Source: an uncultured Eubacteriales bacterium
GTDB taxonomy: Bacteria > Bacillota > Clostridia > Lachnospirales > Lachnospiraceae
DNA: 64,000 nt
Reading direction: 5' to 3'
Assembly: GCA_900314885.1 (NCBI GenBank)
Contig: OMWY01000013.1
Location: 1 to 64,000 of the forward strand
In this document: one piece after another, positions 46,052 to 46,826 of the stretch
Layout of the letters: the number at the start of each line of letters is the position of its first letter
Position numbering within the stretch: position 1 is the first letter of the stretch
Program-made: the position numbers and the translations under genes
The notes under the pieces: model-generated
The model's database searches: none
Told to the model about the DNA's origin: nothing
The model's input: the letters and a program-made list of their open reading frames with translations, nothing else

Positions 46052-46090
46052 AATATTGCTTCCTTTTTAAATCAGAATAAAATTTACTAT

Positions 46091-46119
46091 TGACATTTTT
46101 ACATTCAGCCTTTATAATA
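46091..46119 (+). promoter_or_regulatory. Sigma-A promoter of the queT riboswitch transcript
   Basis: TTGACA (46091-46096) and TATAAT (46114-46119) have a 17-bp spacer. Transcription would start near 46126, leaving about 40 nt before the riboswitch. Confidence 0.85.
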
Positions 46120-46164
46120 CACTTTCGTAACGAATTTGGCAAGTTAATTTTACAGAGATTTGCC

Positions 46165-46205
46165 CGAGTGTTAGTATCCCTTCCCACTCGTCAAAACTAA
46201 GCGGA
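46165..46205 (+). promoter_or_regulatory. preQ1 class I riboswitch
   Basis: CGAGTG (46165-46170) pairs with CACTCG (46185-46190) as P1. The loop starts UUAGU (46171-46175) and contains CCC. The 3' tail is A-rich and ends ACUAA (46196-46200), which pairs with UUAGU to form the P2 pseudoknot. This is the compact preQ1-I architecture. It lies in the leader of a QueT-family transporter gene, the expected target. Confidence 0.8.
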
Positions 46206-46232
46206 TAAAGTGAGTGATTATCGCTGATTATG

Positions 46233-46283
46233 CTCCTTTATATTTTTCGCTTCGTTTCATGAGTGGAGGAAAATATAAAGGAG
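46233..46283 (+). promoter_or_regulatory. Ribosome-site-sequestering hairpin in queT leader
   Basis: CTCCTTTATATTTTTC (46233-46248) pairs with GGAAAATATAAAGGAG (46268-46283), 16 bp with one G-U, and buries the AAGGAG ribosome site of queT. It is positioned to act as the expression platform of the preQ1 riboswitch. The short TATTTT after the stem also leaves open termination. Confidence 0.75.
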
Positions 46284-46289
46284 TATTTT

Positions 46290-46784
46290 ATGCGTAACAA
46301 GAAAGTTTTGTACATTGCCCAGGCAGGCATCATCGCTGCCATCTATGTCGTTCTTACTGCCCTTGCCGCGGGATTTGACCTTGCGAGCGGAGCTATCCAG
46401 GTAAGATTTTCTGAAGTCCTTACAGTAATGCCATACTTTACCCCGGCAGGAATCCCCGGCGTAACCTTAGGCTGCCTTATCGCTAACATAGTTACCGGGT
46501 CGGCCATGCCTGATGTAGTTTTCGGTACCTTAGCGACCCTACTCGGAGCGCTTGGAACCTACGCCTTAAGGAAGAACAGATGGATAGCTCCAATCCCTCC
46601 GATTGTCGCAAATGCGGTAATCATTCCATTTGTATTAAGATTTGCTTACCACATTGAGGGCTCACTTCTCTTCTTCGCGGCAACGGTCGGCGCCGGAGAG
46701 GTTATCACCTGCTACATCTTCGGACAGATTTTAATCTCAGCTCTCAATCCTGTGAAGAGACATGTATTCGCCATAGATAACTGA
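46290..46784 (+). CDS. queT: QueT-family queuosine-precursor ECF transporter S component
   Basis: A 164-residue membrane protein with about five hydrophobic segments. Typical QueT sequence: IAQAGIIAAIYVVLTALAAGFDLASGAIQVRFSEVLTVMPYFTPAGIPGVTLGCLIANIV. It should import preQ0/preQ1 with a shared ECF module. The preQ1 riboswitch in its leader supports this. The ATG at 46290 follows AAAGGAG; an upstream in-frame codon at 46263 falls within the sequestering hairpin. Confidence 0.92.
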   Translation: MRNKKVLYIAQAGIIAAIYVVLTALAAGFDLASGAIQVRFSEVLTVMPYFTPAGIPGVTLGCLIANIVTGSAMPDVVFGTLATLLGALGTYALRKNRWIAPIPPIVANAVIIPFVLRFAYHIEGSLLFFAATVGAGEVITCYIFGQILISALNPVKRHVFAIDN

Positions 46785-46795
46785 AGATAACTTCG

Positions 46796-46826
46796 AAGTG
46801 GACAGGAATAAGCCTGTCCACTTTGC
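46796..46826 (+). terminator. Terminator of queT
   Basis: AAGTGGACAGG (46796-46806) pairs with CCTGTCCACTT (46813-46823), followed by TGCGTTTTCT. It lies 12 bp after the queT stop. Confidence 0.8.

Follow-up and report, generated by a model that had tools for sequence, protein, structure and literature searches.

A probable diverged preQ1 aptamer with a distant ribosome-site-sequestering hairpin before a Lachnospiraceae queT gene

Background

Three classes of preQ1 riboswitch have reportedly been described by McCown and colleagues. The literature drawn on here consists of parts of five papers (PMC11625349, PMC10622847, PMC8752633, PMC12519234 and PMC11476745). Within what those parts cover, preQ1-I switches rank among the smallest known, and the reviewed translational examples of class I have the ribosome site within the pseudoknot or adjoining it (PMC11625349); the type 1 switches of Listeria queT repress translation (PMC12519234). 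Among the titles and abstracts listed (in one case 15 of 68 papers), none describes an output of the kind considered below, most of the subscription literature lying beyond their coverage.

The locus analyzed here lies in 64,000 nucleotides of an uncultured Eubacteriales bacterium (contig OMWY01000013.1, positions 1 to 64,000; the window). With moderate confidence, we read the leader of its queT gene as a translational OFF switch in which a preQ1 aptamer of class I, diverged but type I-like, is joined to a distant sequestering hairpin.

The queT gene and its leader

The gene at 46290-46784 (+; 164 aa from the ATG at 46290) is queT, encoding a preQ1 transporter: it matches the PF06177 profile with E 1.5e-44 and is the sole match to that profile in the genome. 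Its named relatives include one from an uncultured Lachnospiraceae bacterium (51%) and one from Oribacterium parvum (45%), which would put the host within or close to the Lachnospiraceae. TGT is present in the genome; QueC is represented by two weak partial matches only, with no clear full-length protein (one of them passes the cut-off only when summed, at 25.8 bits, and covers positions 1-59 of the 210 in the profile, inside a 398-aa frame). The presence of TGT and lack of a clear full-length QueC would fit salvage of preQ1 by way of QueT, and repression by preQ1 of its own importer would be the expected sign of control, by analogy with Listeria queT.

A promoter-like TTGACA-17-TATAAT (46090..46118, +), which is a consensus match only, agrees at 12/12 consensus positions and would place the transcript start near 46125. 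The putative aptamer spans 46165-46207 and lies upstream of a queuosine gene, the adjoining queT. Its P1 helix is made of CGAGUG (CGAGTG in DNA; 46165-46170, +) and CACUCG (CACTCG in DNA; 46185-46190, +), enclosing the 14-base loop UUAGUAUCCCUUCC (46171-46184, +), and is followed by an A-rich tail, UCAAAACUAA (46191-46200, +), that is retained from the ordinary form of the family. A hairpin at 46138-46164, which ends exactly at the start of P1, might stack on that helix.

The ribosome site, AAAGGAG (46277-46283), is located ~70 nt from the aptamer tail (46207 to 46277) in the 3' strand of a long stem (46231-46248/46268-46285, +; 18 pairs, two of them G-U; -22.7 kcal/mol), whose 5' strand contains the anti-ribosome-site strand CUCCUUUAU (46233-46241). 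The sequence-only reading had named the P1 strands and a queT ribosome site, both confirmed here, and had placed about 30 nt between switch and platform, which is the distance from ACTAA to the stem; the stem that it held to bury the ribosome site is real, with 18 pairs rather than the 16 that it counted.

This strong stem, followed by UAUUUUAUG, could be taken for an intrinsic terminator, which would make the switch transcriptional like that of B. subtilis; terminators do occur among class I switches (PMC11625349). The 3' strand of the stem, however, is the ribosome site, with the start codon immediately after. The stem is also absent from a terminator scan, a weak objection as that scan covers loops of 3-8 bases only. 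We judge termination here very improbable.

Other elements accompany the stem and the gene. A 12-codon frame (ATGAGTGGAGG..., 46259-46297) begins in the hairpin loop, overlaps the start of queT and stops at queT codon 2; no ribosome site is seen upstream of it. GGAGG at 46265-46269, within the stem loop, could serve as a standby site, and a 13-pair terminator-like hairpin (46794-46825) lies 3' of queT.

The ordinary form in the family

A QueT gene occurs in 265 of the 397 genomes sampled from the family. The 139 leaders examined include 4 of the window's own genus, one being the window's; of the other 135, 130 come from the QueT-bearing genomes of other genera and 5 from named records. A script identifies the aptamer in 127 of the 135 leaders other than those of the window's genus; the loop has twelve bases in 125 of these 127, all 125 reading UUCGNRACCWUC, and the ribosome site falls in the pseudoknot tail in 127/127 by the script's loose test. 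This is the pattern of class I, type I (PMC11625349; PMC8752633, in the parts covered). Among the eight leaders that the script misses, two (L039, L101) show the aptamer on reading, L038 is incomplete in sequence, and the remaining five have no aptamer in the leader sequence shown.

The ordinary form varies in minor ways. By script, 10/127 leaders carry extra sequence between P1 and tail; such insertions before the A-rich tail, often a small hairpin, are seen in L004, L062, L074, L078, L086, L111, L120 and L139. CCAUC replaces CCUUC in 11/125 loops (L029, L030, L064, L075, L104, L115, L117, L121, L131, L142, L157), and these loops accompany tails that are, by reading, one A short (ACUAAGG or ACUAGG, not ACUAAAGG), a joint change that possibly reflects an interaction of loop position 15 with the tail.

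Kinship of the window element

The sequence-only reading had proposed a preQ1-I riboswitch before queT, to be given up if no preQ1 model scored and its pseudoknot did not covary. The Rfam models were run, and the first half of this is what was found: RF00522 has no match at E<=1 over 4.5 kb, nor at E<=10 over 181 bases, and these scans yield zero matches to Rfam preQ1 families of any class. (A permissive Rfam scan of the leader gave 19 matches, mostly microRNA-like on the long stem and none preQ1; these were discarded as the chance result of any long hairpin.) The genomes of relatives show that the Rfam model under-scores aptamers of this family, RF00522 passing its cut-off in just 3 of 98.

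A model built from 38 type I aptamers, all outside the window's lineage (R1), has the window element as its top hit both in the window (E 5e-4) and in the genome (E 0.02), the next genome match (E 0.06; C15:412156) being not aptamer-like on inspection. R1 recovers 11 of the 18 lineage loci supplied to it and at E<=1 misses L007, L161, L191, L192, L194, L199 and L210. Homology to the type I aptamers of the family is supported by these R1 matches. As to the hallmarks of type I, the UU immediately 3' of the P1 5' strand is present (46171-46172), as is CUA in the 3' tail (46197-46199); the UC before the P1 3' strand is absent, CC standing at 46183-46184, with the specificity C in place and the preceding U not. 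Because the Rfam score and the UC are both missing, the element is filed apart from plain members of the class. The preQ1-I type aptamer is nevertheless supported by homology, through R1 and the leaders of family and lineage, although Rfam leaves it unscored. The element is probably a diverged class I, type I-like aptamer, predicted to sense preQ1 (a building block of tRNA), that descends from the type I switches of the family and probably works like one.

Comparison with the leaders of orthologous queT genes, which the sequence-only reading had advised, also bears out this kinship. The queT genes closest to the window's come from g267, a large genus with queT in 52 of 61 genomes; forms intermediate between the ordinary aptamer and that of the window are seen both in g267 and in the genus of the window. 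In these two genera most loops read UUA...CCUUCC, at lengths of 12-61 bases, the longest containing inserted hairpins (61 bases in G488, 40 in G496, 38 in G464). In these three (L199, L202, L211) the inserts lie between UU and CCUUCC, and P1, tail and ribosome site are still ordinary. Among 19 lineage sequences, the ribosome site is in the nearby tail in 11 and displaced in 7 (the window, G454, G473, G476, G498, G457 and G471); in the remaining one, G003, the tail as a whole is displaced. G457 and G471 retain AAGGAG in the tail, and translation starts from a second copy downstream.

The window's tail, AAAACUAAGC (AAAACTAAGCGGAT), stands after CACT and before queT in 4 of 62 g267 genomes, and the frame 3' of each of these four tails is a QueT 56.5-68.2% identical to the window's. 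Across the 397 family genomes, the 13-base tail pattern occurs at 25 places in 24 genomes, none of which, other than the window, has CACT directly before it. At one of them (L245) ACTCG precedes the pattern, but no strand complementary to it stands in the 40 bases displayed, and G214, which carries this locus, is not one of the genomes listed with QueT.

Many further g267 queT leaders show no aptamer. In one locus directly before queT (L201, of G443) the P1 5' strand is, by eye, apparently gone, and loop end, P1 3' strand and tail remain; this seems to be a riboswitch in decay. Aptamer-less leaders and the apparent loss of the G443 P1 5' strand together establish that loss occurs in the lineage.

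The register of the pseudoknot

The P1 hairpin loop and the A-rich tail have the pairing potential of an H-type pseudoknot. Each of the 19 lineage sequences allows four or more consecutive pairs between the 3' portion of its loop and its tail (a statement of pairing potential only), the loop-tail helix ending two bases before P1 in 18 and one base before it in G473. In the window the strands are UAUCCCUU in the loop (46175-46182, +) and AAGcGGAUA in the tail (46199-46207, +), which form 8 pairs with one bulged C. Pairing is better with a sequence's own tail than with one exchanged from another: across all 19, 53 of 5000 swaps do equally well, and among the 7 displaced forms 111 of 5000 do; the position at the edge of the helix is A-U in 5, C-G in 3, U-G in 5 and unpaired in 6 (hand alignment, bulge ignored). 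Because the sequences are related, the evidence from swaps and alignment is only moderate.

The pseudoknot of the sequence-only reading, UUAGU/ACUAA, uses two strands that do exist (TTAGT at 46171-46175 in the loop and ACTAA at 46196-46200 in the tail, both +). By eye, its third pair (A-U) can form in 15/19 and its fourth (G-C) in 7/19, with no two-sided changes across the 19 sequences; the neighboring pairing is the better supported. The earlier register is probably wrong, and we prefer UAUCCCUU/AAGcGGAUA, a tentative choice, because the crystal structure of the Carnobacterium (Can) type I RNA shows other contacts in the loop-tail region (PMC8752633, in the part covered).

Rival pairings and the sequestering stem

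The predicted fold of the RNA 46126-46300 is better than that of every one of 200 shuffles (z -4.3). With the ribosome site constrained to be open, a rival structure comes out best, in which the anti-site strand is bound by the tail and the P1 3' strand by GAGUGG in the loop of the stem (46261-46266, +), a potential displacer of P1 and the alternative partner of CCACUC (46184-46189, +). The linking sequence, whose role the sequence-only reading found not obvious, would thereby acquire one: folding suggests that it carries an anti-sequestor, GGAUAAAGuGAG (46203-46214, +), complementary to the stem 5' strand at 46233-46241 (46205-46214 can pair with it, one U being bulged), and that the P1 3' strand has a complement in the loop of the stem. 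Each of these pairings excludes the aptamer, and they are candidates for competing with it and freeing the ribosome site. A hairpin within the linker (46200-46225) was considered as the main switch and set aside, being at most 0.07 populated in growing transcripts.

The cost of opening the ribosome site, in energies that exclude the contributions of pseudoknot and ligand, rises by 10.1 kcal/mol, from 6.4 in the free RNA to 16.5 when P1 and the pseudoknot strands are held. This difference is reached in 0/300 shuffles of linker and loop (mean 1.2, sd 1.4), 1/300 of tail, linker and loop, and 0/300 of the loop alone; shuffling tail and linker alone reaches it in 17/300, which counts against the reading. 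Blocking GAGUGG raises the free opening cost to 13.3, and blocking the tail raises it to 16.1. The direction is the same with the Andronescu 2007 parameters (3.9 to 12.2 when the aptamer is held) and those of Langdon 2018 (9.8 to 15.0), and is unchanged, with Turner 2004, at other transcript ends or with UUAGU/ACUAA held instead.

Folding of the relatives with displaced sites gives a mixed picture. Holding the aptamer raises the opening cost from 2.0 to 7.1 in G457, from 2.6 to 6.8 in G471 and from 4.0 to 5.9 in G498, barely changes it in G476 (2.1 to 2.4) and leaves it at 5.2 in G473. The probability that the site is unpaired falls in G476 from 0.64 to 0.16 or 0.02 (a value sensitive to the exact 3' end, 0.65 becoming 0.39 in a second computation) and in G498 from 0.16 to 0.01 or 0.00; it stays at 0.57 in G473, and in G454 there is no fall (0.30 to 0.32 or 0.35). 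G457 and G471 have a like decoy logic in other sequences (tail GGAGC, anti-site GCUCC, site GGAGC), and the GAGUGG exchange has been noticed in the window only. From these mixed results, displacement of the site is shared, the decoy logic is shared in part, and the exact wiring is not conserved.

Timing and a proposed mechanism

In the full-length RNA the site ends up closed whether the aptamer is held or not (P unpaired 0.00), so that equilibrium gives no switch and the one proposed would be co-transcriptional and kinetic. As the free transcript grows, pairing of the tail with the anti-site strand amounts to 0.96-0.97 at every end sampled in the range 46252-46282, and P1 drops to 0.00 at end 46268. 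The sequestering stem reaches 0.94 at 46280 if the aptamer is held; in free RNA it is already favored at 46284 (0.73), and it is complete by 46300, held or free.

These computed states are compatible with the following scheme. With preQ1 bound during transcription, P1 and the loop-tail pseudoknot would keep both the tail and the P1 3' strand engaged; 46231-46248, transcribed afterwards, would then find no rival partner and close on the ribosome site, and no QueT would be made. Without preQ1, the tail GGAUAAAGuGAG would pair with the anti-ribosome-site strand once that is transcribed, GAGUGG would next capture the P1 3' strand and break P1, and the ribosome site would be temporarily free until the more stable hairpin re-forms. 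On a tentative further reading, not far short of an even chance, the tail that once bore the ribosome site has become a decoy that contends with the displaced site for one anti-site strand, the hairpin loop can rip P1, and the change from direct masking to a kinetic anti-sequestor has possibly occurred more than once.

That the hairpin wins at equilibrium in all full-length states modeled also suits a real aptamer whose switch is decayed or weakly active, the long hairpin holding queT translation low regardless of ligand, and the losses in g267, including that seemingly in progress in G443, point the same way. This we nonetheless think unlikely: UU, P1 and the tail AAAACUAA are retained though the tail no longer bears the ribosome site, and the rival fold exceeds its shuffles. 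It is improbable, too, that the aptamer acts nearly alone, the bound pseudoknot impeding ribosomes indirectly and the hairpin being secondary; the Can type I switch does regulate with its ribosome site moved by <=10 nt (PMC11625349), but the site here is ~70 nt from the tail and inside an 18-pair stem.

Comparison with known systems

The proposed kinetic OFF switch combines traits of several described riboswitches. With class I, type I (Carnobacterium Can; Listeria queT), in the parts of the sources covered, it shares P1, the UU after the P1 5' strand, the A-rich CUA tail and a downstream queT (PMC8752633, PMC12519234); it departs from that type in its 14-base loop, in the A that follows UU where the family has C, in CC rather than UC before the P1 3' strand, and in a ribosome site ~70 nt off in a separate hairpin. 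As in class I, type II of B. subtilis, the aptamer would work through a separate downstream hairpin (PMC11625349), which in B. subtilis is a terminator, whereas that of the window covers the ribosome site. Like the class III preQ1 riboswitch it stands before queT with an expression platform remote from the pocket (PMC11625349), but class III is a 100-nt, five-helix RNA and the window matches no Rfam preQ1 family. A parallel in logic comes from anti-sequestor riboswitches, for example that of E. coli tbpA (TPP), in which a sequestering or an anti-sequestering stem is chosen during transcription (PMC11476745), although ligand and aptamer differ. One aptamer with its ribosome site either in the tail or displaced by ~70 nt or more would constitute a natural series in which the output has been swapped and the sensor kept.
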